Shown here piece by piece: positions 13,388 to 63,760 of a DNA stretch of 64,000 nt. Location: NCBI GenBank assembly GCA_964019415.1, contig OZ025868.1, positions 2,701,961 through 2,765,960 on the forward strand, written 5' to 3'. Made by a program: the position numbers and the translations under genes. Each line of letters begins with the position of its first letter. Position 1 is the first letter of the stretch. The notes under the pieces were generated by a model. The model saw only the letters and a program-made list of their open reading frames with translations. It was not told the origin of the DNA and did no database searches. The stretch is from Ianthella basta. Its lineage: Eukaryota; Porifera; Demospongiae; Verongiida; Ianthellidae.

Positions 13388-13790
13388 CATGTATACCTCT
13401 GAAATAAAGACACTCTCTACTGAGTGGGGTGCCTACTGTTCCAGCTGCATACATTGAGTTGTATACAAAGCTACCTCTGAAATAAGGACACCTCTCTGAT
13501 GAGAGCAGTGCCTACTGTTCCAACTACATAGAGCAGTGAACAAGGCTTCCTATGAAATAAGGACACTCTCTAATAAGGATAGTGCCTACTGTTCAGCTAC
13601 ATAGAGATATGTCTAAACTAATTCTGAATATGGACATGCACCCTCAAATAAGGGCAATGCTTACTGCGTGTACAAAACTAATTCTGAAATATGGACACCT
13701 CTCTGATGAGGATATATTTTGGCTAGTCTCAAACTGTATATCAAAGGTGTCCAGAACAGAGAAGTGTCACTGTACCACAATCGGCTGGAG
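13388..13790. repeat. Tandem repeat, about 75-80 bp unit, about five copies
   Basis: Successive units share 'CTCTGAAATAAGGACAC', 'CTCTCTGATGAG' and 'AGTGCCTACTGTTC' in the same order, each diverged from its neighbours. The unit contains motifs typical of the ends of the TACAGTGG-type elements at 26575 and 50121. It is non-coding. Confidence 0.7.
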
Positions 13791-13885
13791 TGGAGAACTA
13801 GTAACAAGAAAATAAATGATATAAAAGGTGAGAAGACGGTTCATTGCAGTAAGCCACTGCAACGGCCAGGCCGGGCTAGGTTGAA

Positions 13886-14175
13886 CAAAGGCTAATCACT
13901 GGATATTACACCTACCAGCCTTCTACACCGTAGTATCTCAGGAGGCTGGGGGGCCGGAGCCTTATTGATGGCACCAACATTCCATCAGTACGCCACACTG
14001 ATGAGCCCAATCAGGGTGAAACAGCTGTTTGTGGCTCTTCCATCTTTGTAGGATGACTAATGGGGGAAGGCGATCACTGGTTGCCATCAATATAATAGGG
14101 CTCCGCCCCCCAGCCTCCTGAGACATTTCAGTGTAGAAGATTGGTAGTCGTAATATCCAGTGATTAACCCTTGTT
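13886..14175. mobile_element. Short inverted-repeat element with about 75-bp arms
   Basis: The left arm runs from about 13886 (AACAAAGGCTAATCACTGG) to CAGGAGGCTGGGGGG. The right arm (about 14093-14175) is its reverse complement with scattered changes. There is no coding capacity. It lies inside the presumed M2 intron. Confidence 0.75.
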
Positions 14176-14496
14176 CGTATATAAAAGGTGTCAGCAAACA
14201 CACTATCTGCATGCAATGCTACAGTATAATATTATATGTAGCAAATACAGTCATACAACATATGTACATCTATATATTATTGTACTGTCCTCTATGTCAC
14301 ACATTGTTGTGACAGCACACATGGAAGCACCACTATCACTGTCAGAGCATGTCCTTTAGACAGTTGCTTTGACAAACGCCATATGGTAGCTTCAGTATAC
14401 ACATACGTTGTACTGTATGTACTGCACATAGGATTATGCAAGATATTGCGTCATTGCATTGCTACAAGCTATGTATATCTGTATACATAGAACTAC

Positions 14497-14826
14497 CTTG
14501 TGGGTCCACCACTGTGGTGTCACTGTCTTCTCCTCCAACAGTCAATGGTAGGAAGCAAGTGAAGGAGACAGGGTCACCAGTGAAGTTGGCTGGGTCAATC
14601 CTCACTCTGAGTCTTGAGGCTGTCTGGTTTACAGTTCTTTGATCAAAAACATCCTCATCAGGGAAGAGACGTTTTCTACCCACTCTCCAGTTGGGTGCAG
14701 CAACTCTGTACCTGAATGTTCCATTCACGCTCTCCATCACATCAGGGTAGTAGCAGATGAGGCCAACAGTGTCACCAAAACAGGGAGTGATGTTGTTGGA
14801 GGAGAGGAACACTCGCTGGGCAGCAA
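14497..14826 (-). CDS. Ig-like domain exon of receptor M2
   Basis: This 330-bp exon is phase 1-1, with acceptor CTAG and donor GTAGTT on the minus strand. It encodes AAQRVFLSSNNITPCFGD, then GLICYYPDVMESVNG, ASRLRVRIDPANFTGDP and SFTCFLPLTVGGED, ending VVDPQG. The frame is intact. Two Ig cysteines and an N-glycosylation site (NQT) are visible. It would splice in phase to the FN3 exon at 12296-12742. The neighbouring leader copy at 14989-15061 appears to have lost its donor, so expression is doubtful. Confidence 0.8.
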
Positions 14827-22410: not shown

Positions 22411-22835
22411 GAGAAGGAAAGGATAATAAGCGTAAGCACAGCAAGGCTCGATGGAAGGAGCCACATCCGAAGACCTTAAAGGCAACCGTCGAAACAAGTC
22501 ACGATCAGCGACATCTTTTAATCTAGCAACAATCACCTCAAGCATGGTTTTTATGGACTGCGAAGCGAGTGGCTGCTGGCAGGGTGTCGTAGCTCAATGG
22601 CTAGAGGACTGGCAGCTAAAGCCAGACGTCCTGGGTTCGATTCCCGGCAGCGCCACTTTCTTTGCAGCCCTAAGTCGTTTCAAAGGTCTACGGACAGTAA
22701 CAACGCCGATCGTGACTTGCTTCGACAGGTTGCCTTTAAGGTCTTTGAACATAGCTCCTTCCATCAGCCTTGTCTTCGGACATGGCTCCTTCCATCAGGC
22801 TTTGCTGTGCTTACACTTATTATCCTTTCCTTCTC
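22411..22835. mobile_element. Inverted-repeat element carrying a tRNA-like gene
   Basis: The left arm from GAGAAGGAAAGGATAATAAG through GATGGAAGGAGCCA and GACCTTAAAGGCAACC to AAGTCACGATC (about 22411-22507) is mirrored by the right arm at about 22709-22835. The right arm has a local duplication of the CTCCTTCCATCAG segment. The 73-nt tRNA-like sequence lies between the arms. Confidence 0.7.
22583..22655 (+). tRNA. tRNA-like gene with CTA anticodon (amber type)
   Basis: It folds as a complete 73-nt tRNA. The acceptor is GGTGTCG with CAGCGCC (one C-A mismatch, two G-U) and discriminator A. The D-arm is GCTC/GAGG with loop AATGGCTA. The anticodon stem is CTGGC/GCCAG, perfect. The variable loop is ACGTC, and the T-arm is CTGGG-TTCGATT-CCCGG. 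A box TAGCTCAATGG and B box GGTTCGATTCC match the Pol III consensus. The anticodon loop is AGCTAAA: positions 34-36 are CTA, and position 33 is G instead of the near-universal U. No intron or encoded CCA. It may be a SINE-like relic rather than a translating tRNA. Confidence 0.65.
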
Positions 22836-27814: not shown

Positions 27815-29617
27815 TTACTGTAGTGTTCTAATGATGATGATGATGATGATGATAGCATGCTGAATATCAATAATGGAAAGATTTTTATAATAAACTATAA
27901 ATGTAAAGCAAGCATCACAATAAAAGGTCATGAAATGCGTATTAAACTCAAGTTTGCATAGACAAAGTGAAGTGCGTACATAAGCAGTACATAAGTTTTT
28001 AGCAAGAAAAACAAGCATGTCAACTTTGTCAGGTTTAAGAGAAGCTCTCTGGGGTGTGACAATGTTGCCCGAGGTGCTGAACAGGCGTTCAGATGAAGAG
28101 CTCGTTGCGCAAACAGATAGATACGATTGTGCAAGTTTGCACAAAGCTGGAAACCTAGGACTCTGCACTTTCCACCACTGCAACGGATCTTCCTCTGGGT
28201 CCAACTTTGGAAAGGCTTCGTATGCTGCTACTTCTGCTTTGACTTGCTGCTCTGGTGATAAAACTGGTTGAGTTTCTATAGCAGCATCCTTGAAAAGGGA
28301 GCCAAGGCTACTCTTCTTGGTGGGTGGAGGACCTGCAATAGCAGAAGAGCTTGACGAATCTTCCACTGTTGAAGGCTGAGGACTCAAAGCACGTTGAATG
28401 ATCTTAGCACCCTCTTCATGTAGAGTCTCCTTGATGTCTTCGACATCAGCATCGTCACTGAAATGACACTTTAACCGTGGGTCCAAGAAAGTGGCTATTT
28501 TAGGAATCTTCAAAACCATTGCAGTGATCTTTGGAATGGTGTAACAGCTGCTAAGGTCCTGCTTTATCTGACGTCTGATGTCTTTAGTGAGCTGTGTGTC
28601 ACTGGCCTCATCTTTCAGCAGCTTTGTTTCGAAAAGGTGCAACATGGGCAGAATGGCAGACACGGTGACATACTCCTCACCCGAGAGTATGTCAGTGAGA
28701 GCAGAGAGGGGGGAGAGGGCCTGGTGAATGGCTGTTAGCACATGAATATCCTGCCAGGTAGGAACTAAATGGCTTGCTTTTCTGTCAGCACTGAGGACTG
28801 TGCGGATGGCATTCTCCTGCTCCAAAATCCGGGCTACCATCTTTGCCATTGAGCCCCATCTGGTAGGACTATCTGCCACAAGAGCATGCACTGGTAGTTG
28901 GAGATTCATCTGTGCCTTAGTAAGACCCCTCTTCCGCTTCCAGCTCATCGAAAAAGCACTGACTATCTTACGGCACAGTGCTAGACATCGTTCGCATCGC
29001 TGGTCGGATTTGATTGCTTTGGTGATGGCTAGATGCAAATTGTGGCTGAAGCAGGAGAGGTGACACCACTGGAGCTGCTCTGCAGCATTGACAAGGTTTG
29101 CTGCATTGTCTGTAGTCAAACAGACCTGACGTGAAGCCCTCAAGTCCCATGCTGCAAGGGTTGCTTCCATCGCCTCTGCCAGGTTTTCTCCAGTGTGGTC
29201 TTCAGGAAGGAAATGGGTCTGCAGGCACCTGTTCTCCAGTTTCCAGTCATCACTTACGTAATGCACCGTGTAGCTCATGTATGGACGCATCCCAACACTC
29301 GACCACAGATCGGAAGTGGCAGAAAAGAAGAACACCCCATCAAGATCCTGCTTCACTCTCTTTCTCACTGATTCATACAGAGCAGGAATGGCTGTTCTTG
29401 AGAAGTATGAGCAAGAAGGCAGCTGGTATCTGGCATCAAACGTCCTCAGCAAGCGCTTAAACCCGCTTTTCTCAACCGTATAGATGGGAAGAGAGTCTTT
29501 GGCAATGAAATAGGTAACCGCGTTTGTTAGCTCCTTCCATTTCGCTCCTTTCCGCTCGTACGCTTGGGCCGTTGTCAGCGTCTCTTGCAGGGTTGGTTGG
29601 CTGCTCGCTGTCACCAA
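27815..29617 (-). CDS. hAT-superfamily transposase, N-terminally truncated
   Basis: A 600-codon frame with hallmarks of the ZBED-type hAT transposases. TSDLWSS and TTDNAANLVNA carry the two catalytic aspartates. HNLHLA precedes the helical insertion and SPTRWGSM the conserved RW. SSSSERLFSTSGNIVTPQRA with LKPDKV is the C-terminal dimerisation region, holding the catalytic glutamate. The N-terminus begins at MVTASSQPTLQET, past where a BED zinc finger would be; no finger is found upstream. The tail after LVFLAKNL (about the last 50 codons) looks like read-through into non-coding sequence, including an ATC run. With intact catalytic residues but no DNA-binding finger, it is either a relic or a second exon. 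Confidence 0.85.
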   Translation of the reverse strand: MVTASSQPTLQETLTTAQAYERKGAKWKELTNAVTYFIAKDSLPIYTVEKSGFKRLLRTFDARYQLPSCSYFSRTAIPALYESVRKRVKQDLDGVFFFSATSDLWSSVGMRPYMSYTVHYVSDDWKLENRCLQTHFLPEDHTGENLAEAMEATLAAWDLRASRQVCLTTDNAANLVNAAEQLQWCHLSCFSHNLHLAITKAIKSDQRCERCLALCRKIVSAFSMSWKRKRGLTKAQMNLQLPVHALVADSPTRWGSMAKMVARILEQENAIRTVLSADRKASHLVPTWQDIHVLTAIHQALSPLSALTDILSGEEYVTVSAILPMLHLFETKLLKDEASDTQLTKDIRRQIKQDLSSCYTIPKITAMVLKIPKIATFLDPRLKCHFSDDADVEDIKETLHEEGAKIIQRALSPQPSTVEDSSSSSAIAGPPPTKKSSLGSLFKDAAIETQPVLSPEQQVKAEVAAYEAFPKLDPEEDPLQWWKVQSPRFPALCKLAQSYLSVCATSSSSERLFSTSGNIVTPQRASLKPDKVDMLVFLAKNLCTAYVRTSLCLCKLEFNTHFMTFYCDACFTFIVYYKNLSIIDIQHAIIIIIIIIRTLQ

Positions 29618-30444
29618 TATCCAAACGAATAAAATTATTCTTCGAATATTAGGCTACCGAACGAATATTTGACTATTCAGTTATTCATTCGAGCAATATA
29701 TAATGCAGTAAATAAGTTATGCTGTAGCACACTACATAATAGACAAAAAGAAAAACTATCAAATGATAATTATAATTAGCCCTACTTTCAAATAAACACT
29801 GATAGATAGCCAAAAGAGCCCCAAAGACGTTCGTATCAGCCAATCATAGGCACGATGCACCATTCCCGCTGCATTCGGTCACGAATCTTTTGACGCCATT
29901 TTCTGAAAACTTACGCATTGCATAAGTTTTGATTTCTATTCTCGACTGCCACAGAAGCACTGAATAGTCCTTCACATGGATGTATAGAGCCTAGTGAGCT
30001 AGACAAGGTCGCATCTAAATTCCATAGATTTACTGACAGGCACTCTGCTGGGTATAGGGATTTAACACACTAGTGATTCTAGCAAGAATCAGCTTGTTGG
30101 CTTGGTGTGGAATAATTGTACATGAATTTCGCTTAATAGCGTTCCAGAAACGTCGATTCGTTCTATGTGGTCCTATCCCTTGGGTCTAGCTCCATAGAAA
30201 TGAGGGTGTCAAAGTCTTGAGCTACTAATTCACGTGTCTATACTTTTGCCGCTGACCAGTTGTAAATATCTAGTTTGTATATTTTTGCATGTCCGAAGGA
30301 CATCTTAACTTTTGGAACTGACTAATACCCATTTCTAAAACTTAACAATGTACAGAATATTGAGTACTATATGGGTACCCATCTTCAGCAGGCTTTCTGC
30401 TACATTTTGAAATATCTGCACTCATGCAGCAGCGGCAGTAGCCC

Positions 30445-37761: not shown

Positions 37762-38091
37762 GTTCTGCCCAACAGTTTTTCCTCTCCTCCACCAACTCCA
37801 CTCCCTGTTTTGGTGACACTGTTGATCTCATCTGCTACTACCCTGATGTGATGAAGATGGTGAATGGTCAGCCAAGGTACATTGTTACTATACCCAGTTG
37901 GAGAATGAATGGAAAACGCCTCTTCCCCGATGAGGACATATTGGATGTTGTCATTGTAAATGAGACAGCCTCAAGACTCAGAGTGAGGTTTGACCCAGCC
38001 AACTTCACTGGTGACCCCGTCTCCTTTACTTGCTTCCTGCCATTGACTGGTGGAGGAGAGGACAGTGCTAGCAGAGTGGTGGACCCACAAG
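37762..38091 (+). CDS. P1 Ig-like exon
   Basis: 330 bp, phase 1-1, acceptor TACTAG, donor GTAACT. It encodes SAQQFFLSSTNSTPCFGD, then DLICYYPDVMKMVNGQ, ASRLRVRFDPANFTGDP and SFTCFLPLTGGGED, ending RVVDPQG. Both Ig cysteines are present and the frame is open throughout. It is closest to the partial exon at 1-308. Confidence 0.82.
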
Positions 38092-41000
38092 GTAACTATA
38101 TTTGCACCCTATTTATGCATGCACTGATTAATGCAACTGAACACATGTGGAACAGTACCATGAATGTTAGTGTTGTGCTGAATTGGGCCCACCTCTAATG
38201 AGCCCTCCACAGAATAGAGGATATGCAACAGTTTTGCGGTACCGGAAGGTCAAAAGGTCGACTGTGAACAAGTATGCAGCTAGCCATATGTAAGCATAGA
38301 GGAATACTTTGGAATCATCTTGTTTCACCTTCGCCACTGTTCTGCGCCGTAAATCTGCCACTCGAACAGTATATGGTGAGTCGGTCGACGCCCAGAAGAG
38401 GTTCAAGGCCATAGGTAACTTGCAAAGAGGTACATGCAGTTTCGTCTAAAATGGGACACATCACTCACACTTCACAGCACTGGAAGATGCCCTAGAGTGT
38501 CACCAAGGCTCCTGGTGGCGTCCTGTGGAAGCCTTTGAGTTAGAGCCCTTCATCTGGAACTCCTGCTGCAAAGAATTACAGGGGCCATTGTGTACGAAGC
38601 TAAGCATGCTACCAACACTATTCTGATACAGTAGTCTCAGCAACAAGACATAGCTCTGTACAAAAGTAAAAGGCAGTGGCGCCTTCTTGAAGTATCCGAA
38701 CTAACTGCTGCACGTATGATTTGAATGTTTAATAATGTAGAAGAAGAGGCTCATTGCTACGTTGTTCAATGTAGGTGAATAGTTTTGTATGCAGCTGACG
38801 AAGGCCTTCAGGCCGAAACGTCCTGCATTCAGTTGTTGAATAATCTGCTACGTGTTGCCCAAAAAAGAAAAACTATTCACCTACATTGAATGTTCAATTG
38901 CAAAAACAGTTCTTCCTGCGAATTGGCACATGCCTTAAAATGAGATTCAAATTACCTGTTCACTAATAATAGGCAACACTTAGCATGAAAATGCATACAA
39001 CTACCCGAAGCAGTTACTTTCATGTTGTACAGTATATTCATGCCCACACTACCATGTCAGTGGCACAAGTGTACTCCCGTACATAACTAATTGCACCCCC
39101 CACACACCCACCTTCAGATTTCCACTGGAATTCTTTGTATACATATCCAATAGTCAGTTTAGAACCATAAAGAACACACAATAATTGGTACAGAGAATGA
39201 ACTCTGCTGTGTGTTCAGACAACCAGTGTGTACTGTAACTCTGTTCTTTATGCAGCTTGCTCCCTCCAGTTCACTGTCATGTATTATATTCTTTGTTTGC
39301 AATACAAATACACAATTTAAATACCAAAGTCAAAATTTATATGCTTAGGTAGGTGCTCGCTGCCAACTGGAAATGTGGAAATGTTGCTTGTCCATGTCAG
39401 TAACCGGTGATGTAGCTAGCAGCTGAGTGGACTTCACCATGCAGGTGTGGTGTGAAATGTATTCCCGTTACAATACTCTTTCTACTTGTTCAGACGCTGT
39501 TTCATAACCCTTATTCACTGATGCTTCATTCTTGGAAGGATCACATCTCCAGAGTGCGTCAGAAATGTTTTGGGGCACTCTCTAAGCTACAAAGATACCG
39601 GAAAGTTCTGCCTATCACCTTAAAGAGGAAGCTCTTTCAGGCTTTTGTACTGCCTCATGTAGACTACTGTGCAGTTATTTGGCAAGAGTGTACTAAAGAG
39701 CTACAGACTAAAGTAGAGAGGATCCTAAACTATGGCATGCGACTGATCCTATCACAACCACCCAGGACACCTAGTGGGGAGATGAGGCGTACTCTGCATT
39801 GGATGCCCCTAGAAAGACGTAGAGTTATGTTTCGGCTTATCCTTCTACACAGATGCTTGAACAATCTGGCCCCGGCCTACCTTACTCAATCATTTCACAG
39901 AAATTGTTCCTTGGGCTATGCCAGGACAAGGGGCTCTGACAACCCCCACATCTTCCCTGTTAAGTCTGAGTGGGGAAGGAGATCTTCCTTTTTTAGAGCA
40001 CCGCTAGACTGGTCAAATCTTCCTCCAGAGATCAGAAGTATCAGTCCGTTCCACTTTTCAAGAATGCATTAAAATCCTATCTTATGAATTAACCTTCAAT
40101 TACAGACCATTTTTGTTAATCACAATTACACTCTATTCTTACCATCATTAGCTAGAAATACAACATTGCTATCACTTGTGTGTATTGTATTGTATTGTTT
40201 TCAGGACTCCCAGGCAGACCAGCCATATGAGCTGATGGGACTATCCTGTTTTAATAAAAATAACCTAACCTAACCATGTGCTTAATGGAGGCAAGTGTGT
40301 TACAATATGTGAATGGATACCTTTACAGTATTTTGTTATGTATTTCTGCTATTTAATAATAGAGACAGCCAAGCAACCTGTATTTCAAAGCCGGCCCCTT
40401 TTTGGTGAAAATGGAAGCAGTGCCACAGTGACATGGGATCACACTGACCAAGGACCCTGTTTCACCAACCTCACCTTCTCCTACAACATCACCTGGTACC
40501 CTGTGGTGGGTGGGGTAGTCCAGTGGGGGGAGAGACAGAGTGCTGTGACTGGACCAGGTGCCACAGAGTATACCATCACCAACCTGATGAATGGCACTGA
40601 CTACCAAGTGAAGTTGTTTGGGTTCACTTCAAGTGACCCAGTTGTGTACAGTGAGGTGGCTACAGTTAACATCACTGATGAACCCTTTGAAGGTAACTTT
40701 GGTCAAGGTTCTTGAACATTTCCTGTGTCCACTATGATTGATTTGTATGCGTCAGCATGCAAAGTAGCTATGCATGCCAATACTGTAAATCGTTATCACA
40801 CCATGGGACATATACCGTATGGCTGGAAATTTTGGTGGGAATTTATTTTGGCGGTTTGCTTAATTTCTGTATTTGGCGGAATTTACTTTGGCGGTTTGGC
40901 AAAAGCCTGTGCCATAATGATATGCATAGCAAAATGGCTAACCCAGACGAACAGTGCTAGATTGCTGAAGAGTCTCTGAGGAGTACACATGCTGTTGTTT

Positions 41001-44000
41001 GACCATAATTGGATTATTCTAGCTCCAATCCTTAGCTTTTCGCACGAGTGCTGCAATGTACAAAGGCTTTTAAGCCTTCTTTTGGCCGATCTGCTGACGC
41101 TCGCCCCAAGCCTGTGACTTCGCACACAATTGTAACGCAGAAACAGAGAACAGGCTGTCGAAATCTGCCGCAGTAAGTTACCGACAATGATCTCAACGTC
41201 AGTCTTCACTGTGACCGCATATACGACGCCATTCGGATTGCCTTTGGCTTCCTCGCGCTCTTCTTCCACCTCCGGTGTGCAAAACTCTTTAGAAACGTAA
41301 TGTCCTCGCGCTGCTGTCAGTTGTGAACTCCATGCTGACGATTAATCTATAGACCTGGCACAATCAGGTTTGTTAAGCGGAAAATAACTTATGATTGCAC
41401 AAATTTTGGCGGAAGAAATATTGGCGGATTCCTCTCAAAACCGCCAATCCGCCAAAATAAATTCCCCACCAAAATTTCCGGCCATACGGTATACTGAGCT
41501 GCATGCAATACATGCACAAAAATGAATATCCCAGCATGTCAGCTCAAGACACGTTCTAATTTATAATGAGTTGAACAGCACATTTAAAATGCACTTTTGT
41601 TCTGTCTCCTCCTGCAGAGAATCCACCTAAAAATGAAGTCCCTAGTAGAGGTAGTGTTCTTGACCCTGTAGCTATAGCAGGTAAGGCAGCTACATGTGTC
41701 CATGTTCCATCTTTTCATTGAAGCCCAGCAGTAAATGACATAGTTATATATGCATGCATCTTCAGGAAGACCCTTCTATTCTATTTGCAGTTGCTATCCC
41801 TATAGGGATTATAGCCTGCTTCGTGGTTTCTATCGCCATCCTGGTTACAGTGTTCTCATGTACAAAACAGAGAGGTAGGCATGATGCATACCTGTCCTTC
41901 CATTCATGCGTACACTGTGCCAGCTCTGTGTAATAGCATTATTCTTGGTCTTGTTATTAGGGAGTTATCCTGTAACTGAACATAGTGGAACAACAGTGCC
42001 TGCAGCAAGTGCAAGTATAGGTAACGTTGAGAAGCAAAGGCACAGGAGGAAGAAAACAGCTGGTGCCTCTGTACTAGATAATACTGGAGATGATGTGTCA
42101 GTAACTTTATCTTCTGACGAGCTAGCAGATACTGTAACAAGTGATGATATGGATGCATATGAGTCCAGTACAGAGCACCAAAGTGACCAGTTCCAGGTTA
42201 GCACATACTCTGAGTCATTTGTCCTACAACTACTACTGTAGGCTGTGTTGCAGTTACATAGTAATGCCTCCTCTTATGAAACAGTCGCACTATGCAGAGT
42301 TAGACAGAAAATGGCTTTCCGAGAAGCGCTACAATCACCCTGAGCAGGAGATGTTCAATGTGCCTTATGCTGTTGTTGATAGAGCTGCCACGGCTTCAGG
42401 AGCACCACCACTTGTGAAGGTACAACCCCAAGGGGATCGGGCAAGGTCCCAGGGTTGTGCAATGCCTTTTCAATCTACATTCCTGACCTTCCAAAGGTGT
42501 CTTTGCACATTGGATTTCTCTCCTCTAAACCCAAACCTGTCTACCCTGGGCCATGGTGGCTTTCTGTTTCTTTCATAACCCATCTGTACTATAGGTAATC
42601 CACGAACCAGATAATAGATTAGTTATGTCATTGAGTTGCTCTTCAATGCTGTGACATTCCAAGTAATGATGAGATAATCTGGGACTGGCAGATCCTTCAA
42701 TAGCAGCAATTGCATGGTCACTCAGATGTGTACCAGCCCTGCACCAGTGAATGCTGACATAGCTGTTGTGGTATTAAATTGCTTGCAAATCACCCTAGTA
42801 CTTGATGCAAGGATCATTTTCTGGCTGCTTTTGCCCAAGCTGCATTTTTGTGTGAGCCAGTTTTCAAAAGCACATGGTTTTGTCCAACCCCTTGAGACAA
42901 CCAGTTACAACACACATCATAGGACTAGGATATATACGAATGTGAGATGACTGATGTGTATTATTTGCATGTAGTTTTCCATGCTATGTATGTACATGTA
43001 GCCTATTGCGTACCCTAAGGATGATATCACCCACTAATACTGACTTTCTGTTGACTACAGGAAACACCTGTTCCATCAGAAGTGACAAGGATGGGTCAGG
43101 TGAGCTAATGTTTGAGTATGTACTGTATAAATACAAAAACTATTCATCAGCACTACAATTTGCTCATCTTTTCAGTGCAACTCTGACTTTGATGATCCTC
43201 CAATTCCAGGTGTCTTGATCTCAGCCATAACACAGGTTTGCATTACTGATTGTCCTGATGCCTTTATTTCCAACACCCTGTTATGTGTCAGCTTGTATCA
43301 TAGGCCACTCAAATCAAATGTTGGGGGTTGGAGGAGTCTGAACTGGTTGTGGGCACTGCGAAGATATCACAACCAGTAAGCTTATCTCATTATTGTGGTG
43401 TATGCCATACATGTACTATGTACTCCATACCCAGGAAATGTTAAGATGGGAGCAGCTTGTGTGTGTGTGTGTGGTGATGTGTATGTCACTTACGCCATAG
43501 TACATAATGTGCTCCATGAACACATACCTATATAAATTATGTATTCCTTCCCATTGCAAATTTATATGTGCATATTGCTTAACACTGGTCCAAATTTATC
43601 TCCTTAGAGTGTGGGTCTGCCTTTGTTGTCGTGTGGTTTAGTTGCAGAGGAAACCAGTGCTGACTCAGCAGGAGGACTGTCCATCATTAACTACAAGGTA
43701 CGTATCCCCTTGCACAATGTCATGCCTGCTACATACGTAGGTGTCAACTTTCCAGTATTAATTTTCAGAGATACTTACGTATAAATACCTATTGTAGCTA
43801 GTGGATAGTTGTTTGAGCACTTTTGTAGCAGAAATTGACGGCAACTCAGGACATTTCGGCCATGTAGGCCTTCATCAGCTGATAAACTGGCGAAACATCC
43901 TGAGTTACCATGAATTTCTGCTACGCAAGTGCTCGAACAGCTACCCACTAGTTACGTCCCACATAGCAAAGAGTCTCTACACTATTATATATACCTACAC

Positions 44001-47000
44001 ATGTGTATGGGTTTTACACTGGACGAATTGTGTTTGGGAACTTGGTAGAGAATGAACACATAGCGTTTGAGTACTAAGTCTCTCATGGCCAGACCACCAT
44101 TTTCTTATGCAGAGTCTGAGCAAAATGGCGGTCTGGCTTTGCAAGGGATTATTATTCATAATTATCTAGTCCTCTTTTAGAATCATTCTTTGTGCTAAAA
44201 GTTGCTAGTGAAGTAAGTAACATAATGGTGATAATAGGGCCGTAGCACCGGTTTCTATTCTTGCGCTACGGCTCTGGATAAGTATCCTAATGCAACAGAC
44301 AATTCATTAAATTATACAGGAGGCTAATATACTAGTACTTTTCTGTAAGGGGTTACAAGCTGTTAGCTATTATCCAGGACGCAGGCATCACTCTGAAAAC
44401 TAATTGCTTATCTGTTGCTGTTCTCATCTCTAGGTCAATGCTTATTTCAAGCCAAAGAAGTCCTCACAGAAGGATGACACCATAACACAGGAGGCATACA
44501 CCACACCAGATGATGGACAGGCTGCACCAAATGCCAGAAAGGCTGCACCAGATGAGGTAGTCACCACAACACAGGAGATAAAAGCTTCAGGACAGCCCGA
44601 AGATGCATCACCACTGGAGGAAGCTGCTGCACTACAGGACGTGGAGCCTTTTATCTCTGATCATGAACCCGGTCAAGACCATCTCAAGGCCTGGGGCTGG
44701 TTCTGTCGATTGCTGTTGTTCTGTGTACAGGTGAGAATCCCAATTGCATTCATTGCTATTGGTCTGGGGTGCGAGAGTCTGAGTCATCCAGGGAATGTGG
44801 TGCAGTGGTTACGTATGTACATACATATGCACAATTATATGGTGGATTGAGGAGAAATGACCAAGTTTGGTAACAACAGCCCATATCCAAATTCTATCAA
44901 ATTCACTGTCAGCTGTCATGCCTACAGGGGTTCTTACACTCAAGAGCTTTGTGATCATCCCAGGACCGATGGAAGGTACCATTGAAAACAGTGTCATTCT
45001 CGGCTTTCTGTTGATACACTCCTTAATGACATCCAAACTCTGACTTCTTGAATACTTCATGCTGGATCGTAGGTTTCTGAGACGTCTGAGATAAAAAGTT
45101 CATAGTGTTTAAGTAGCCCATAGTTTCTTCCTTTCAAGGGATGCACTTGTTTACATCTCCCCCAGTGTGTAATGCTTTAGACCAAGGGTAAGTTTGCAAA
45201 TGTTCCCTAAGTCACAGATTTGTCATAATATCATCCCGTTGTAAATTTGTATGTATTTAGTATTGAATCCAAGTCTCTCATAAAAGACTCAGCAAGTCTA
45301 GAAGCTATATGCTTTTGCTTTTGTTGCCATTTTTTGACATAGCCTGATATAGTCCCTATGCAGACACATACTCTTTCTTTGCCTGATGTGTGTCCTCCGA
45401 TAGTCGCACGTGACCAAAATGGCGGTCTGGCTACGCGAGACTAGTCCTCTGTAGCCGAGAGCTATATAGATTACTCGTACTTTAAGACTAACTGACTTTA
45501 TTGTGCTTGCTGTGACATGCTGATTCTCTTTCTAATTACCTGCAGTCTGAATACGAAAGTGATTGGTTGCTGCTTTTTAAGTTTTGCTTTTTTTCTACTG
45601 AGCAATTCTTACATATTTGGCTATAATATTATGTATGCCATGGACTTAGTTAATCCCTATGGGATGATAGCATGCCGCAGCAGATGATTTGGACGTGCTA
45701 ATACACTAGGTGGTTTTGTATTTTATACATACGTAGCCACAGAACTAATAGTTGCTTAATACACCCTACATCTTTGCTAACAGTGTGGGTTCTTTAGTAG
45801 ATCTTACTGACGCTTGTGCACTAGTACTCATGTTTGTCATTGAGTGTTGTTCACCCACTTCAAGGACCTATATAACTAGAGAATTGCCAATTTTGAGCCA
45901 ACATCCTGAACTGCTTGTGTCAACACAAGCAAAAACTGTGGTTGAAAACAGGTGCACACAGCGATCATTCATGCCACACGAGGCACACAGTATTTTCACC
46001 AGTTACTGCATTTAATGGCAATAGACGGTCTTTGTCATAATATGTGTGTTACACTGGTACTGTTCGGACTTCCTAGGTATAATAGTTTGTGTGTGTACAG
46101 TACGTGGTCAGATGTTGTGTGACCCCAGCCCAAAAGTGGGAAGAGCTTAGTTTATCCTTAGACTTATAATTAATTCTAATTGATGGTGGCGGCGCTTATA
46201 TCCCTCACCCTGCACTAGCTTCCCTAGCCAGCTATAGGCATAGGCCTACCTGCATGCATGTGTCAAGTGATTATCACGAGAGGTCTAAATCAGATTCAGA
46301 AATAAAAGCATCTGTTCCAATTGTTATCCATAATTATTATTACACCTGTCTTTAGCTACACTTGTACAATTTTCACCCAATCCTTCTTCATCTTCTCTGA
46401 TGGACTAACTAGCTGGTGCCATCTGTAGTGCCCCTCACGTGGCAATTGACTGCAAACTCATGATCATCCATGATGCATGTACATTTCTTGTTCCCAGACT
46501 GTAGCTGCATGGGAGGCTGCTTGCAGACGGGGGTGGGTGTGGGTGGGTCACAAATACATGCAGCTACCTTTCGAAGGTGTATGCCAGTGCCAATTACAAT
46601 TGCTTATACATATCACCCTAATGCACTTGGTGGTTCACTTTCTGACTGCCATTTTAACCATAATAATCGTTATGTTCACTCGAGTCCACTTACGTAACAC
46701 ACTAAAATGAGTAATTCTCATGAAATATCTATCTTAAAAAGCATAATCACAGCTTCATCACTGTCTGATGTCTATTAGATGAATGACATTTCCATGCTAC
46801 GTGTACAGTATTGTGTTGTTAATTGCATGACATTGTGTATAATAATGTATGCATGGAGAGTACAACCCACTGATTATTTTCTTTACTACTATCACAGGGA
46901 GAACATGTGGAAGCTGATACAAGAATGATTACTGTGAGTCTAATGTTTGTGTATAATAGATACATGCAACTGTATGAATTTAATACAATTATTCGTTTAC

Positions 47001-47951
47001 TCTCGTGCAGTACAAGTCTTTCTTGGATTACGCACACAAAGAATCCTCAATTCCAGCTGTCAAGACCGAAGCACAGGTTTGCAAACCTGCAAGATTGTCT
47101 CTGTTCATGCATGTCCATTTTCCCAACACCATGCATGTTATGTGCCAGCCTATACCTTAGGCTAATGTGCGGGACTACCAGAACCTGGAAGACTCTGAGT
47201 GTGTTCAGGCCGTGAGCACGTTTGAGATGTCACAGCAAGTGAGTTTGGTTGTGTATGAACTGCGTATGTATAGCATGCACTCAATGCCAAGGGAAGGTAG
47301 GATGGAGCAGCTTGTTGTTGCATTTCACAGCATGTTTCAGGGTAGCATGCCCTCTGCTATGAATCATGTGAATACAGGATCGTTGGAACAGTGGATTCTC
47401 ACATGCTTATGTATATCATAGATTGACAGCATCCCAAGCATACTGGGGAGTGTACATGTGCTGCTCCAAATGCTGTATTCACGTAACTGATTGCAGAGTG
47501 ATAATGGTATACAGTAATGCAGGACAGGAACCCTCAAGACAACTGTATTGTACATGCATTGTCTTACCCTTAGAGTGGTACGCCTGCCTTGTCATATGGT
47601 ACAGAGAAGACAGATGCTGACTCAATGGGGGGACTGGTTATCAGCAACTATGATAAGGTACAGTAAAATTATGCTCTTGCAAAACAGTAGCATTTGTTGA
47701 ATGTTTTCACACCTTTGGCCTGAGAGTTGATTGATCTGTCTAGTGCTGTTTCTTGTGAAGGCTGGTGAATTATTACTCACACTGAGCCAAACACCACACC
47801 AGTGGAGGAAGACATTGCAGCAGATGAAGAATGCACCGTGCCACAAGAGGAAGATGCTGTACAGCATGAAATGGCACCACTCATATGTGGGCCCATTCAA
47901 GAGTACCGTGATAACTACCTCGACAACTGGGGGTATCAAAGGTTTTCCTAA
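37762..47951 (+). CDS. P1: Ig-FN3 single-pass receptor with ITIM-like tail (multi-exon model)
   Basis: The exons join in phase: 37762-38091 (Ig), 40363-40692 (FN3), 41618-41680 (linker), 41791-41874 (TM), 41961-42196, 42285-42419 (ITIM-like), 43061-43099, 43176-43235, 43304-43375, 43608-43697, 44434-44730, 46898-46933, 47011-47076, 47161-47238, 47574-47657, 47787-47951 (stop TAA). Extracellular exons and linker are phase 1-1; exons after 41961 are phase 0. The cytoplasmic part would be about 450 residues. No signal-peptide exon was found upstream of the Ig exon, so the 5' end is missing. Two transposon insertions lie in introns. The likely role is a cell-surface receptor signalling through phosphotyrosine; ligand unknown. 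Exons 43061-44730 and 46898-47951 are paralogous and could instead be alternative C-termini. Confidence 0.65.
38100..38760. other. P1 intron, no recognisable element
   Basis: I found no exon or repeat with clear ends. Confidence 0.4.
38764..38890. mobile_element. Small inverted-repeat element with hammerhead-like core
   Basis: The arms TTCAATGTAGGTGAATAGTT and, inverted, AACTATTCACCTACATTGAA enclose about 80 bp. At 38795-38825 the centre reads CTGACGAAGGCC, TTCA, GGCCGAAACGTCCTG, the pattern CUGANGA - stem II - GAAA of hammerhead ribozymes. Confidence 0.65.
39452..40275 (+). pseudogene. 5'-truncated LINE reverse transcriptase in a P1 intron
   Basis: The frame to 40072 encodes the thumb and C-terminal region of a non-LTR reverse transcriptase: SWKDHISRVRQKCFGALSKL, LFQAFVLPHVDYCAVIW, RMRLILSQPPRTP-like and LHWMPLERRR. 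It lacks the palm motifs, and a frame change near 40050 separates the last residues (FKNALKSYLMN in another frame). The 3' end has a TTAATAAAAATAACCTAACC tail with short CTAAC repeats. It is a typical dead-on-arrival insertion, in the same orientation as the host gene. Confidence 0.8.
40363..40692 (+). CDS. P1 FN3-like exon
   Basis: 330 bp, phase 1-1 (acceptor ATAATAG, donor GTAACT). It contains TVTWDHTDQGPCFTNLTFSY, NITWYPVVGGVVQWGERQ, GATEYTITNLMNGTDYQVKL and VYSEVATVNITDEP. The tryptophan early in the domain, the late NGTDYQV block and the closing VATVNIT strand fit a fibronectin type III fold. Several N-glycosylation sites are present. Confidence 0.8.
40813..41491. mobile_element. 0.68-kb inverted-repeat element with TA flanks
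   Basis: The ends are TACCGTATGGCTGGAAATTT and, inverted, GGCCATACGGTA, each flanked by TA. Both ends carry repeated TTTGGCGG / CCGCCAA motifs shared with the R2 repeats. A 128-codon minus-strand frame (40883-41269) lies inside but has no domain I recognise. It sits in the P1 intron between FN3 and linker exons. Confidence 0.75.
41618..41874 (+). CDS. P1 linker exon and transmembrane exon
   Basis: Exon 41618-41680 encodes NPPKNEVPSRGSVLDPVAIA. Exon 41791-41874 encodes VAIPIGIIACFVVSIAILVT then VFSCTKQR, one hydrophobic helix and a basic stop. Both are phase 1-1 with good splice sites (TCCTGCAG / GTAAGG; TTTGCAG / GTAGGC). The topology is therefore Ig-FN3 outside and tail inside. Confidence 0.8.
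41961..42196 (+). CDS. P1 juxtamembrane tail exon
   Basis: 78 codons enter at phase 1 and leave at phase 0: SYPVTEHSGTTVPAASASIG, a basic patch KQRHRRKK, then an acidic Ser/Asp/Thr stretch with MDAYESSTE. No folded domain is evident; it is likely a disordered cytoplasmic segment. Confidence 0.7.
42285..42419 (+). CDS. P1 tail exon with two ITIM-like motifs
   Basis: 45 codons, phase 0-0 (acceptor AAACAG, donor GTACAA). SHYAEL (42285-42302) and VPYAVV (42360-42377) both fit (S/I/V/L)xYxx(I/V/L). The two tyrosines are 25 residues apart, a spacing usual for tandem ITIMs that bind SHP-type phosphatases. The segment between them (KRYNHPEQEMFN) holds a third tyrosine. Confidence 0.75.
43061..44730 (+). 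CDS. P1 tail cassette A (five small exons)
   Basis: Exons 43061-43099 (ETPVPSEVTRMGQ), 43176-43235 (CNSDFDDPPIPGVLISAITQ), 43304-43375 (ATQIKCWGLEESELVV...), 43608-43697 (SVGLPLLSCGLVAEETSADS...INYK) and 44434-44730 (VNAYFKPKK, then acidic, Pro-rich, ending DHLKAWGWFCRLLLFCVQ). All are phase 0. Each has a counterpart in cassette B in the same order. No catalytic domain is seen; these look like docking segments. Confidence 0.65.
43445..43600. other. P1 intron without special features
   Basis: A short GT run near 43457-43474; nothing else noted. Confidence 0.4.
43796..43955. mobile_element. Palindromic element H1, copy 2, with hammerhead-like cores
   Basis: The same arms as 18198-18392 (GAGCACTT, GAAATT, CTCAGGA; inverted on the right). 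On the minus strand at about 43845-43878: CTGATGAAGGCC, TACAT, GGCCGAAATGTCC, a complete hammerhead-type core. The plus strand has a shortened one (CTGATAAACTGGCGAAACATCC split by a minimal stem). Confidence 0.75.
44740..46180. other. P1 intron, nothing recognised
   Basis: Only short dispersed motifs: CAAAATGGCGGTCTGGCT near 45416, also at 44125 and inverted at about 26467. Confidence 0.4.
46190..46600. repeat. Paralogous block shared with 49890-50390
   Basis: Segments such as TTCTCTGATGGACTA, ATAGTGCC-like ends and GTTCCCAGACTG occur in the same order in both blocks. The right copy precedes the P2 start exon; the left copy precedes P1 cassette B. The element at 50121-50283 is absent here. 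Confidence 0.6.
46898..47951 (+). CDS. P1 tail cassette B (five small exons, ends the gene)
   Basis: Exons 46898-46933 (GEHVEADTRMIT), 47011-47076 (YKSFLDYAHKESSIPAVKTE AQ), 47161-47238 (ANVRDYQNLEDSECVQAVST...), 47574-47657 (SGTPALSYGTEKTDADSMGG...), 47787-47951 (PNTTPVEEDIAADEE ... IQEYRDNYLDNWGYQRFS, stop). All are phase 0. DYQNL (47173-47187) has the YxN pattern bound by Grb2-type SH2 domains. The last acceptor (CACTGAG) is weak; an upstream AG (GTGAAG at about 47760) would read a different frame to 47979. Confidence 0.6.
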
Positions 47952-50789: not shown

Positions 50790-51129
50790 GTGCTGCCCAG
50801 CGAGTGTTCCTCTCCGGATCCTCCACCAACCCCACTCCCTGTTTTGGTGACACTGTTGACCTCATCTGCTACTACCCTGATGTGATGGAGAGGGTGAATG
50901 GACAACTGAGGTACAGTGCTACTACAGCCAGCTACAGAATGAATGGGGAACTTGTTTTCCCTGATGATGACGTCTTTGATCAGAGCATCATAAACCAGAT
51001 GGCCTCAAGACTCAGAGTGAGCATTGACCCAGCCACCTTCACTGGTGACCCTGTCTCCTTCACTTGCTTCTTATCTTTGACTGGTGGAGGAGATCGAGGA
51101 CAACACCAGCGTTACCACAGACCCACAAG
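50790..51129 (+). pseudogene. P2 Ig-like exon with a 4-bp frameshift
   Basis: The homologous frame starts AAQRVFLSGSSTNPTPCFGD and keeps both Ig cysteines (DLICYYPDV, SFTCFLSL). At about 51089-51095 the sequence GGAGGAGATCGAGGACAAC has four extra bases compared with GGAGGAGAGGACA in the paralogues. This shifts the frame so that the expected ending EDNTSVTTDPQG is out of frame at the intact donor (GTACAC at 51130). The exon is 340 bp, not a multiple of three. It could be a pseudo-exon, a polymorphism or an assembly error. Confidence 0.7.
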
Positions 51130-52969: not shown

Positions 52970-54290
52970 ATAAAGTGATATGACTGTGGTCAACGTGATT
53001 AGATAATGAGTTATTGAATTATACTAATTGGCATGTGTTTACCAATGTGGTCTATAAACCCAATGTACTTCCAACCACTGTGCACTTGCGGTCAGTAGGT
53101 CTTTTGTTCGAGAAAAATGGGGAATGAGAGGATGTATGGTGTCTTGTGTATGTATATCTTACGTATATGCTCGCGTGCGTATAACTATCTTTATGCCAGC
53201 AAGTGGGGAACTTCTTAAGCACTGAACATGGCAAGGTAAGATCATTCAACTTAATCGGGATGTTTTGGCTGCGTAGGCCTTCATCAGCTGAAACTGAAGT
53301 TGCGATCGATTACATATTGTTATGCCACTTTCTGTGTCTACAACAATAGGTGTGACTTGTAATTGTACTCTGCTTTAAATCCAGAGTAATGTGAGTCATT
53401 GTTATAGTCATACAATGGGCACAATTGGCTATCACAGATGGTACATCTTCCTTGAACCCAGACAATAGTGTTGCCTACTGGTACAATGCATTAAGGTGGC
53501 TTTCAGTATAATTGACAATTGACTTACTTTCTCCTCAATTATCATGTTTACACTGTTCCTGGCCAGCAATGCAGTACACTTCTTAGGGCTGTGCTGAAAA
53601 TGTGCTGGCCAACATTATACAAGCTGCAGTACGTTATACTGCACATCTATTTCTGTGTTTTAATGATGGTGTCCAGTGGAGTTCTATAGCTTGCTCCTTA
53701 TCAGCTCCTGCAGTCCACCGTGAAGGCTGCCATCTTACTCTATCTTTGGGAGAGCTCCCTGTAGATTGAGAGTATGCAGGAGAAGGTAAAATCGGTTTGC
53801 AAAGATATTCTGTGCATGCACGCTCTTCTCGAGAGCGCAGTTCTAGTGCAGCTCCATTTATATTTGCCCGACAACCTGAGCTGAAGAGAGCCAGAATGGT
53901 TGTGTTCTGTGTCAGGCCAGCACAGTTTGTCACAGGTCAATTTGCTACTTTACACTTTTTATTGCGTTGACATGGTTATGATTGCCAGACTGAGTAAAAA
54001 CAATAATTTGTATAATGGGACTCACAACAGCTAGCCGCCGATTTCCTCTACACTGGTTTCACAATGTTTTGCCCCGTTCGCATGGTGCACAGCACGTGCA
54101 CATGAGGCTAGCAGCTGAGACTGATTGGTGCTTAAGTCAGAGGTACATGATCAATGTGATGATGTTGCAAATCACATGACTTCTTACACTGCTGTGGTGA
54201 TGAACCACCATGTACACACTGTACATACACGTGTCTGTGTGCCTAGAGCAAATCTACTACAGTAAACTTCCTATCATATTTCACACTACA
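52970..54290. other. P2 intron with a hammerhead-like fragment
   Basis: At about 53255-53287, minus strand, CTGATGAAGGCC, TACGC, AGCCAAAACATCCC resembles the H1 core. No other feature was seen. Confidence 0.45.
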
Positions 54291-54295
54291 TGCAG

Positions 54296-54580
54296 GTTAC
54301 CCAGCCATAAGTGTACAGGCTCCCCACTGTTTTGGAAGACCTTTCAAACTCACCTGTCACTATCAGTATGAGACCACTAGGCCACCGGTGTGGTTGATGG
54401 ATGGCAAGCAAGTGGAGCATGATGGAAGTCAATTTGACATCAGTGACATAGATGGCTCACTTACTCTCCTGGATGTCAGTCAAATTGGATCTAACTTAAT
54501 AAAGAGCGTTTTTCAGTGTTGTGTGGAACTGACAAGTGGTCCACAAGTTTGTGGAGAACGCTACATGCTTGAATCACTTG
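54296..54580 (+). CDS. P2 second Ig-like exon
   Basis: 285 bp, phase 1-1 (acceptor CATGCAG, donor GTAAGA). It reads YPAISVQAPHCFGRPFKLTC, HYQYETTRPPVWLMDGKQ, SLTLLDVSQIGSN, then SVFQCCVELTSGPQ. The order of cysteine (KLTC), tryptophan (VWLM), a LxL strand and a second cysteine (FQCC) is the classic Ig arrangement. Confidence 0.75.
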
Positions 54581-54652
54581 GTAAGATGCATGTTACTGAT
54601 TTAATTATATCCATCCCATTTAATCCCCTGCTGTTTTGTGCTTTTTCCCTAG

Positions 54653-54913
54653 AAGAGCAACCTGACCCCCCATCGGTTACTTTAGTATCAATGACTACCA
54701 TTGTCCTGACTTGGAATATTTCCAAGAGCTGCTCTGGTTCTAAGGTGAACATATTTTGGCAGTCCAACAGAGGTGGTGGGCAGGCTATGAATGTGTCAGG
54801 GAACAGATTCACCATCACTGGCCTTACCTCTGGTGTGACCTATAACATCACTTTGGTTATCATTGGAGATGGAATTCAAAATGACTCAATATCCATCACT
54901 GCTACCACTAGAA
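54653..54913 (+). CDS. P2 FN3-like exon
   Basis: 261 bp, phase 1-1 (acceptor CCCTAG, donor GTAAGT). It reads EQPDPPSVTLVSMTTIVLTW, then VNIFWQSNRGGGQAMNVSGN and FTITGLTSGVTYNITLVIIG. The PPSV start, the VLTW tryptophan and LTSGVTYNI are typical of FN3. It is closely paralogous to 61785-62039. Confidence 0.8.
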
Positions 54914-55015
54914 GTAAGTGCTTACCTTGCATGTACTCACACTCAGTATGTAATCTGTTTTATAGCTTCTAATCTAAAATTCATTTTATTTCATGTTCTG
55001 TATGACATTGTGTAG

Positions 55016-60422: not shown

Positions 60423-60721
60423 GTAACTAGGTACTCTACTGGAGGTAAATGAGCTTGTACATTGTATGTATGCTCTGTGTGCTCTGCATGCTTCTAACTC
60501 CACTGACAACATTATACTACTTTACAGCTCCACTACTACACAGTAAGCTGTGTTTGTTATGTATGCAGAATAGGTAGCGCCACTGACTCAGATAAGGGAA
60601 ATTGTAGTAGTAGCTATACGTATATGCTACGTATAGTGCAAGGACTGTATATAGCTGTATAGCTATATACATGGCAGCTCTTTTGTGCATGGATTATATG
60701 CGCATTCATTCCATCTCACAG

Positions 60722-61030
60722 CTGACTTAAATGTCTCCCTGGAGCTCCGAGGGGACTGTTCAGACGAACTCAACCTCATCTGCAGACATGATGCTGTTCC
60801 CACTGACCCAGCCTGGATACACAATGGGACAGCGGGGGCTGGTGAACTCCTTGTCACTGCCTTCCCTGGGTTGACAATGTACTCTTTCCAGAACAGCACA
60901 GAACACAGAGTGACAGTCACTGAAGAGGATAGTGTAACAGCTCTGGATGGATATGTTTTCCAGTGTGCATACAGCATACAGGGCACCCCCATCAAGAGCA
61001 ATGCAGTCCAGTTCACTTTTGTTCCTAATG
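60722..61030 (+). CDS. P4 Ig-like exon
   Basis: 309 bp, phase 1-1 (acceptor TCACAG, donor GTCAGT). It reads DLNVSLELRGDCSDELNLIC, AWIHNGTAGAGELLVT, STEHRVTVTEEDSVTALDGY and VFQCAYSIQGTPIKSN. Cysteine (LIC), tryptophan (AWI), and DGYVFQC near the end are textbook Ig features (the D-x-Y-x-C block). It differs in sequence from the CYYPDV-type Ig exons. Confidence 0.82.
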
Positions 61031-61380
61031 GTCAGTCACACACAACACATTGCCCCAAATGTCTTACATGTATTGCCACTACAAACTGCATGTTTACTGT
61101 ATGCCGTGCATGACATTGTGCAGTGCTACTGGAGTCATTATCCATGGACAAATATTGAACCATACTGTATTGTATGTGTCCAATCTGTGCCAGAGTAGCT
61201 AGGGGCTTGCTATATTAGCTATGATGTAATCAATTTGCAGCGCTGTTACCTGTACATGTACTCTAATGTGGACACTAACTTACAGTCTGTATCGATCGGT
61301 GCTGTAATACCTGAGTGGGCTGCACTGTATGTACTGAATACATCTCCTTTTTATCTCCTTGAATTGGTCAATTTGTTCAG

Positions 61381-61702: not shown

Positions 61703-61784
61703 GTGTGTGCATTAGTTATACCACATACACAAGTGTAGCCAGACCATTTGAATCCCCTTATGCTTCATGCAGTCGTCCTGGCAG

Positions 61785-62039
61785 AGCAGCTTGACGCTTC
61801 AGTAGCTGCTTCAGCATCAATGACTTCTATTGTCCTGACTTGGGGTTTTTCCTTGACTTTCACTATATCCACCATTAACATATTCTGGCATTCAAACAGA
61901 GGTGTTGGACAAGCTATGAATGTGTCAGGGAACAGTTTCACCATCACTGGCCTTACCTCTGGTGTGTCCTATAACATCACTTTGGTCATGGTTGGAGATG
62001 GAATAAGTGATTCGGTATCCATCTCTGTTGAGACTGCTA
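61785..62039 (+). CDS. P4 second FN3-like exon
   Basis: 255 bp from the inner acceptor (GGCAG); an alternative acceptor 12 bp upstream (61773) keeps the frame. It reads SMTSIVLTWGFSLTFTISTI, NIFWHSNRGVGQAMNVSGN, FTITGLTSGVSYNITLVMVG, then donor GTAAGT. It parallels P2 54653-54913. The reading frame is intact. Confidence 0.78.
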
Positions 62040-62136
62040 GTAAGTGCTTCACTTGCATGTACTTGGCGTGTGATCTTTATATGGCTGTAGGAAGATGTTC
62101 AGAATGTATTGTATTTTATGCTCTGTATATGTACAG

Positions 62137-62291
62137 GTGTAGAAGGCGTATCTGTGGCATTTGCATCTGTTACACTTGTGATGAGTGCATTGGTATTGAG
62201 CATACTGGCAGTCATAATTACAATCATAAACAGCATTCGGAAAAGAAGAAATTTTTACAACTTTCTCGCGGAAGAAGCAATTCCTCTAAAT
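62137..62291 (+). CDS. P4 transmembrane exon
   Basis: It enters at phase 1 and leaves at phase 0 (donor GTATGT). It reads VEGVSVAFASVTLVMSALVL then SILAVIITIINSIRKRRNFY and NFLAEEAIPLN. One long hydrophobic helix is followed by RKRR, which fixes the topology as N-terminus outside. Confidence 0.78.
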
Positions 62292-62476
62292 GTATGTGGT
62301 GCTAAGATGAAGTGCTAATGTGTGTGTGTTTCTGGGTAGTAAGCACACACATGTATGTGTGCATGTGTCTGTGTATGCATGTGGTACAGTATGTCTGTGT
62401 ATGCATGTGTGTACAGTATGTGTGTGTTGGGAGTACCTTACTTTTGGAAGAAAGGCTGCTGTATCTTCTACTTCAG

Positions 62477-63162: not shown

Positions 63163-63209
63163 TCAAGCATATGTACTACTGTAAGGGTGACTGTCTACAC
63201 ACTGTGCAG

Positions 63210-63760
63210 TGAAGAGACCGGCAACAAAGAAGGACATAGAAGCTGAGTGGCATGCTAACCCATCCTACCTGGCAGTGGCACCAAAATTGCAGGAGGAAGG
63301 AGGAGAGCCAGAGAGATCTGAAAAAATACATGAATACATGAATATTAATGTCATGCGCTTGGAGATAAATGGCAGGCCATTGCACAAGCTATCGTTACCA
63401 ATGGCGCATGGGGAAAATGAGGGACTGGAGATATCTGAAGAAGTGCACATGCAAGAAGAAGAAGGGGTGGAGAGATCTGAAAAAGTGCGTGTGCAGGAGG
63501 AAGAAGGAGGGCCGGAGGGATCTGAAAAAGTGCTTGTGCAGAAGGAAAGAAGAGGGCCGGAAAGATCGGTAAAAGTGCATGTGCAGAAGGAAGGAGGAGG
63601 GCCAGAGAGATGTGAAAAAGTGCAATACAAGAATGTCATGCGTGTTGATGTAAAAGTTAAAGGCAGTCCATTGCACAAGCCAACAGTACCAGTAGTGCAA
63701 AGTGATAAAGAGAGACAGGAGAGGTCTGGAGAGAGAGGATATATGAATGTGTGGAACTAG
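63210..63760 (+). CDS. P4-side C-terminal tail exon with repeats, NPSY and YMN motifs
   Basis: An open frame enters at phase 1 after TGTGCAG and stops at TAG. It reads KRPATKKDIEAEWHANPSYL, then EYMNINVMRLEI. From about 63420 to 63625 a unit of about 17 residues (ERSEKV(R/L/H)VQ(E/K)E..GGP) occurs four to five times. It ends with a second VMRVDV...PLHK block and GYMNVWN. NPSY suits PTB or endocytic adaptors; YMN(I/V) suits Grb2/PI3K-type SH2 domains. The preceding P4 exon ends in phase 0, which does not match, so the joining exon is unknown; the P3-type TM exon is a candidate partner. Confidence 0.6.

Follow-up and report, generated by a model that had tools for sequence, protein, structure and literature searches.

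A gene spanning 16 exons at 37762-47951 on the forward strand of a 64,000-nucleotide stretch of the Ianthella basta genome (contig OZ025868.1, assembly GCA_964019415.1; hereafter the window) is predicted to encode an immunoglobulin (Ig)-like exon product, a fibronectin type III (FN3) domain, a transmembrane (TM) helix and a long tail with two motifs resembling immunoreceptor tyrosine-based inhibitory motifs (ITIMs). The exon layout, with FN3 domain, TM helix and paired motifs as given in a preliminary description of this DNA, was confirmed. We put at about one in two the probability that the product is a sponge Ig-FN3 type I receptor of a clustered family, in which an optional ITIM cassette serves to recruit a phosphatase of the SHP type. 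The genome searched comprised 209.09 Mb in 96 contigs (C1, C3 and so on), in which the window is C1:2701961-2765960.

Exon layout and paired tyrosine motifs

The 16 exons, each flanked by AG at the 5' and GT at the 3' side, join in phase to encode 720 residues followed by a stop codon, with which the final exon terminates; the earlier claim of an in-phase path from Ig-like exon through FN3 and TM helix to the tail thus held. The Ig-like exon (37762-38091), the FN3 exon (40363-40692), a stalk exon (41618-41680) and the TM exon (41791-41874) are all open and of phase 1-1, as is usual for extracellular modules. The FN3 exon scored above the curated Pfam fn3 cut-off (E = 1.6e-07, 31.8 bits vs. 25). 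The TM exon was identified by hydropathy as the top hydrophobic phase 1-1 exon downstream of FN3 and ends in CTKQR; with one TM exon followed by basic residues, a type I single-pass protein is predicted. The first cytoplasmic exon (41961-42196, phase 1-0) bridges the TM exon to the ITIM exon (42285-42419, 135 nucleotides, 45 codons) in frame, and all exons from 42285 onward are of phase 0-0. The preliminary description had taken transcripts that never join 41791-41874 to 42285-42419 as a refutation; as the former ends in phase 1 and the latter starts in phase 0, a direct splice of the two would break the frame, and exon 41961-42196 is required between them. The tail continues with exons 43061-43099, 43176-43235, 43304-43375, 43608-43697 and 44434-44730, and ends with exons 46898-46933, 47011-47076, 47161-47238, 47574-47657 and 47787-47951 (stop), which in part repeat the preceding tail module; exon 43608-43697, for example, resembles the exon at 47574 (59% over 27 amino acids). 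The last exon aligns to a paralogue on the same contig, g2781, at 67% DNA identity.

The motifs SHYAEL (42285-42302) and VPYAVV (42360-42377) both lie on the ITIM exon with a tyrosine-to-tyrosine distance of 25 residues. Among the 16 tyrosines of the 451-residue tail, only these two fit the consensus (S/I/V/L)xYxx(I/V/L), and both follow the TM helix in frame, the cytoplasmic position that characterizes ITIM-bearing receptors; the third fit of the gene, VVYSEV, falls in the FN3 domain and not in the tail. The consensus fits and the spacing described earlier were verified in the 16-exon model. Alanine occupies the position after the phosphorylatable tyrosine (pY+1) in both motifs. PMC8631942, which gives the ITIM consensus, describes Ala at pY+1 as conserved across the ITIMs of numerous receptors and reports that introducing it into PD-1 sufficed for SHP1 association; the PD-1 tyrosines Y223 and Y248 are likewise 25 apart (PMC8631942). 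By this analogy, Ala at pY+1 in both sponge motifs would be typical of SHP1-recruiting ITIMs.

A second intact copy of the arrangement was found in an unlinked paralogue (C3:10587364-10592806), which has an Ig-like exon, an FN3 exon, a TM exon, a candidate first tail exon and an ITIM exon in the same order as the window gene. Phases were compared for the TM, candidate tail and ITIM exons, and all three share those of the window gene. The C3 ITIM exon (C3:10588875-10589009) is intact, shows 78% amino acid identity and carries the motifs SHYAEI and VTYAVV. DNA identity between the two loci is 88% in the ITIM exon, compared with 57% where the preceding coding exon could be aligned. In 1.5 kb of C3 DNA past the ITIM exon, no counterparts of the later tail exons were recognized.

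Candidate phosphatase partner and proposed mechanism

The search for a phosphatase partner used human PTPN11 as query (sequence confirmed by PDB search), for which 82 genome matches were listed. The sole place among the matches listed with SH2 and phosphatase parts within 25 kb was C16:693280-713369. Within it, C16:704751-713369 matched, in order, PTPN11 residues 5-46, 42-111, 104-161, 174-286 (55% identity), 326-370 (71% identity), 412-460 and 464-514, and a second set at C16:693280-698427 matched residues 45-113, 105-152, 176-232, 229-288, 323-367, 410-485 and 482-525, with an extra SH2 piece (residues 110-155) between the two sets. By translated match, the genome appears to hold an SHP-type tandem-SH2 phosphatase locus, so that such a partner would be available in the organism. 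The two adjacent sets outwardly resemble the vertebrate SHP1/SHP2 pair. For SYK-type tandem SH2, the activating partner, 18 genome matches were obtained, and no clear in-order tandem was seen among them.

Taken as an inhibitory receptor, the protein would expose one Ig-like and one FN3 domain outside the cell and, past a single membrane helix, a long modular tail inside. Ligand binding would cluster the receptor, upon which Y350 and Y375 of the model, encoded by the codons starting at 42291 and 42366, would become substrates of a Src-type kinase. The doubly phosphorylated segment could then recruit an SHP-type tandem-SH2 phosphatase docking across both tyrosines, which would dephosphorylate nearby signalling proteins and dampen the response of the cell. 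Since the ITIM exon is symmetric (phase 0-0), skipping it would leave the frame intact; its inclusion or skipping may switch the receptor between an inhibitory and a neutral form.

Weighing an inhibitory receptor against the alternatives

Several observations weigh against a receptor of this kind, the first of which concern the ectodomain. The Ig-like exon matched no Pfam family at E<=10 in any of its four copies in the window (4/4), and sequence and profile search of the PDB returned nothing significant (best E 0.11, polymeric Ig receptor). The protein-profile search proposed in the preliminary description was positive for the FN3 exon and negative for the Ig-like exon. The Ig fold of the latter is tentative, being suggested by conserved cysteines, a B-strand-like pattern and a low-confidence structure model. 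C24 and C90 are invariant in 14/14 aligned copies and may form the B/F-strand pair, and position 48, the site of the strand C tryptophan, is W in 7, Y in 6 and L in 1 of the 14. Alignment by hhalign with five human V-type domains gave 17% probability over 16 columns. The structure model is mostly beta, and its weak best matches among those listed are mostly Ig domains.

A second group of observations concerns the gene model and its partner. The exons were read from DNA alone, from which we infer transcription and splicing, and no first exon encoding a signal peptide was found upstream of the Ig-like exon. The top-scoring signal-peptide candidate, near 31.7 kb of the window, was dropped because the upstream regions under comparison yielded no match to it from a paralogue. 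A convincing TM exon was missing in 5/9 other family copies scanned (four with GT-microsatellite frames only, one with none); a plausible phase 1-1 TM exon after FN3 was present in the other four (g2781, g2772, g2646 and the C3 paralogue). No relatives outside this genome were found in viral and general genome contig collections, both of them unlikely to include genes from sponges. Each of the SHP pieces 42-111, 104-161 and 110-155 contains one TGA, which may lie at an intron edge, and that locus is known by translated match only. The lack of a signal exon and the reading from DNA, together with the broken frames of two nearby copies, one at 50.8 kb and one at 61.4 kb, could mean that the joined model is partly wrong, its tail exons belonging to other transcripts or the locus decaying without producing a full-length protein. 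We regard this as very improbable. All 16 exons are open and in phase, whereas segments drawn at random from the window and matched in length and phase (4,000 draws each) were open in 3.0% of draws for the Ig-like exon, 2.8% for the FN3 exon and 3.7% for 44434-44730; for the shorter exons, chance openness is more frequent and reaches 57%. The C3 copy moreover preserves the exon order, with the three compared exons in matching phases, and the TM and last-exon regions of the window gene align also to g2781.

The motif pair itself is open to the objection of chance. At least two consensus fits arose in 14.4% of 200,000 shuffles of the tail, and a pair spaced 18-35 residues arose in 2,924 of the 200,000 full-tail shuffles (1.5%) and in 0.6% of 20,000 shuffles of the first 309 tail residues. 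The surrounding 250 kb contain 2,666 open six-frame segments at least 40 amino acids long, 26 of which have such a pair, the ITIM exon itself counted. With such frequencies in full-tail shuffles and open segments, the bare pair is just mildly unusual and does not constitute strong evidence. The copies of the exon point the same way. A genome search with the ITIM exon found six places by DNA, itself counted, and three by protein, and the pair is kept in just two of the seven copies found. The other five have lost it: the g2781 copy (C1:2786248-2786382) is in frame and unchanged in length but lacks both motif tyrosines, the copy at C1:2768287 is cut short, those at C3:12866745 and C3:12819499 are out of frame, and that at C1:2909640 is a fragment. 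Between the window gene and the C3 copy, the ratio of nonsynonymous to synonymous rates (dN/dS) of the ITIM exon is 0.49, from 16 changes only, and in a neutral simulation the frame and both motifs survived in 15% of runs; selection on the motifs is thus not demonstrated, and the conservation of the exon is compatible with constraint without proving it. Similarity also reaches into the introns, with DNA identity of 73% before the ITIM exon, 77% in the first 141 bases after it and 41% beyond, which fits recent duplication or conversion.

On these grounds, the pair could be coincidental in a fast-evolving tail. The protein would then be a recognition or adhesion receptor of Ig-FN3 type, with a tail that works in some other way or has next to no activity. 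This seems rather improbable to us, as the second copy is both intact and unlinked, and a pair whose motifs both carry Ala at pY+1 arose in 29 of 200,000 shuffles and, among the 2,666 open segments, in a single one, the ITIM exon itself; the Ala criterion is post hoc, introduced after PMC8631942 had been consulted.

In a separate observation, a tandem satellite rich in SYLA/CHILP (~2217-3150 of the C3:12819499 region) was seen next to the degenerate ITIM-exon copy there.

A tail with genuinely functional tyrosines need not be inhibitory. Every ITIM of the SHYAEL/VPYAVV kind also matches YxxPhi, so that YAEL and YAVV may serve as endocytic signals for clathrin adaptors; alternatively, they may dock SH2 adaptors or kinases, of which the many SH2-domain matches in the genome would offer a choice, and the receptor would be endocytic, adhesive or activating. 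Candidate tails of other family members bear different tyrosine motifs, namely NPSYQSV after the TM exon of g2772 and NPSYLAV in a frame at 63.2 kb; the candidate tail of g2646 has SSYCSV, a single ITIM fit (exon limits are provisional in all three). Endocytic signals are not known to need Ser or Val at pY-2, Ala at pY+1 or pairing at 25 residues. These are traits of ITIMs (PMC8631942), and both motifs are retained in the C3 copy. We consider such sorting or other phosphotyrosine roles unlikely, though the most probable of the alternatives to the inhibitory receptor preferred here.

Gene family, genomic setting and comparison with known receptors

The window sits in a large clustered family, as seen from the distribution of Ig-like and FN3 matches. 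The Ig-like exon had 53 protein-level matches in the genome at E<=0.01, itself counted (45 on C1, 4 on C9, 3 on C5 and 1 on C3), 44 of them within C1:1960582-3699588, a span of 1.7 Mb with the window inside. The matches include some broken exons and at least two exons that each account for two matches; several are paired about 1 kb apart and the weakest are 24-35% identical, so that genes are fewer than matches. The FN3 exon had 30 matches, itself counted (21 on C1, 7 on C9, 1 on C3 and 1 on C23).

The Ig-like exons were compared in an alignment of 14 of 20 loci, four by window coordinates; L015-L018 (broken or partial frames), L019 and L020 (short) were left out, as were C1:1967876 and C1:1990060, two matches to which no locus had been assigned. 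Synonymous divergence (dS) of 37764-38090 and its 13 copies was mostly 0.11-0.22 over columns 1-40 and 66-100, with several windows ahead of column 35 and past column 66 at 0.11-0.19; it reached up to 0.79 at columns 51-70 and climbed to 0.34 at the end. The exons appear to have a mosaic history, as if parts had been homogenised by conversion while the middle diverges. Mean dN/dS was 0.65 over the 14 copies, with sliding windows of 0.36-1.08. Strong diversifying selection was considered and found unsupported, the two windows above 1 sitting where dS is lowest.

A broader and tentative proposal, which we hold to be unlikely as a whole, is that the 1.7-Mb complex, with roughly 40 Ig-like exons and a smaller number of genes, combines common recognition modules with exchangeable tails (tandem ITIM, tyrosine-less and NPxY-type) and would constitute a set of paired inhibitory and non-inhibitory self/non-self receptors, in which inhibition could also be switched by skipping of the ITIM cassette.

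Within the window, a neighbouring paralogue lies on the reverse strand at 12297-14824, its Ig-like exon at 14498-14824 (74% amino acid identity) and FN3 exon at 12297-12617 (63%) being found by tblastn. The Ig-like exon of another paralogue is cut by the window edge (1-306, reverse strand, 89-90% amino acid identity), and a further one at 50792-51094 (forward strand, 70-72%) has a frame shift near its end. One or more additional genes of Ig/FN3 type may lie at 54247-54972, 60655-61113, 61739-62305 and 63191-63760, with a hydrophobic segment near 62.1 kb; two of the frames at 54-64 kb have fn3 matches under the Pfam cut-off. Mobile elements were also observed. An 897-residue frame at 1816-4506 (reverse strand) matches RVT_1 (E = 6.9e-07) and is presumably a retrotransposon, and a 612-residue frame at 27818-29653 (reverse strand) is that of a hAT transposase (Dimer_Tnp_hAT, E = 5.7e-20). 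The open frame 39416-40072 (forward strand), in the intron that separates the Ig-like from the FN3 exon, resembles on visual inspection the last part of a retroelement protein; it had no Pfam match at E<=0.01. An intron element with inverted-repeat character at 43787-43979 has several relatives within the surrounding 250 kb. A tRNA call by ARAGORN at 22583-22656 (anticodon cta, labelled Pyl, bacterial settings) is probably an artefact or a tRNA-like repeat.

The assignment of the DNA to an early-branching animal was borne out by contig C96, on which cox1, with nine in-frame TGA, lies together with an atp9 frame of 78 residues, indicating that the organism is a sponge. Mitochondrial atp9 is not known from other animals. 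In demosponges, it is one of the extra genes of the mitochondrial DNA and was present in all those analysed in PMC2444032 except Amphimedon queenslandica. Pieces resembling cathepsin or silicatein gave 29 genome matches; one strict pattern for the silicatein motif had no match in the genome, a result that is uninformative.

The vertebrate inhibitory-receptor layout ascribed to the gene in the preliminary description stands for the gene layout and the two ITIM-type motifs and falls short at the Ig domain, which Pfam and PDB sequence searches did not recognize. Vertebrate ITIM receptors such as PD-1, BTLA, Siglecs and SIRPalpha are known for an Ig ectodomain and a single TM helix, to which the sponge model, with its putative Ig fold and one predicted TM helix, is alike. 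The ITIM consensus is also shared, and Ala at pY+1 is found as in BTLA, Siglec6, Siglec9 and SIRPalpha (PMC8631942). Unlike them, the sponge gene has a membrane-proximal FN3 domain, a long multi-exon tail and no significant match to a PDB chain.

Among invertebrates, the Alr family of Hydractinia, with 41 members (PMC11999971), likewise consists of clustered genes for Ig superfamily receptors in an animal that branched early; ITIM and immunoreceptor tyrosine-based activation motifs (ITAM) occur on candidate members (PMC12065747). In contrast to Alr as described there, the sponge gene has FN3 and an Ig-like exon unrecognised by Pfam. The fester co-receptors (FcoR) of the chordate Botryllus are type I TM receptors of the Ig superfamily from a polymorphic locus; their long tails carry either a canonical ITIM or a hemITAM, and splicing can swap the two motifs (PMC12065747). 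The FcoR ectodomain differs from that of the sponge, as the description in PMC12065747 lists a variable-type Ig, a sushi and two C2-type Ig domains and does not name FN3. Sponge Ig-like adhesion molecules and aggregation factors are surface recognition molecules too, some with Ig-like domains, and the account of them in PMC11999971 mentions no ITIM. Allorecognition candidates of sponges, cnidarians and ascidians are reported to show no conservation (PMC12065747). The likeness to vertebrate ITIM receptors, Alr and FcoR is one of working parts rather than of demonstrated descent.

Among the open-access papers listed by literature searches, none reported an ITIM receptor of sponges in its title or in the abstract shown. 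If the proposed reading is true, a cluster of sponge Ig-FN3 receptors bearing tandem ITIMs, in a genome that also has an SHP locus, would extend the ITIM logic of Hydractinia and Botryllus to sponges, for the testing of which the window gene supplies defined exons and peptides. A complex of paired receptors, if it exists, would take ITIM/SHP control of recognition back to sponges.

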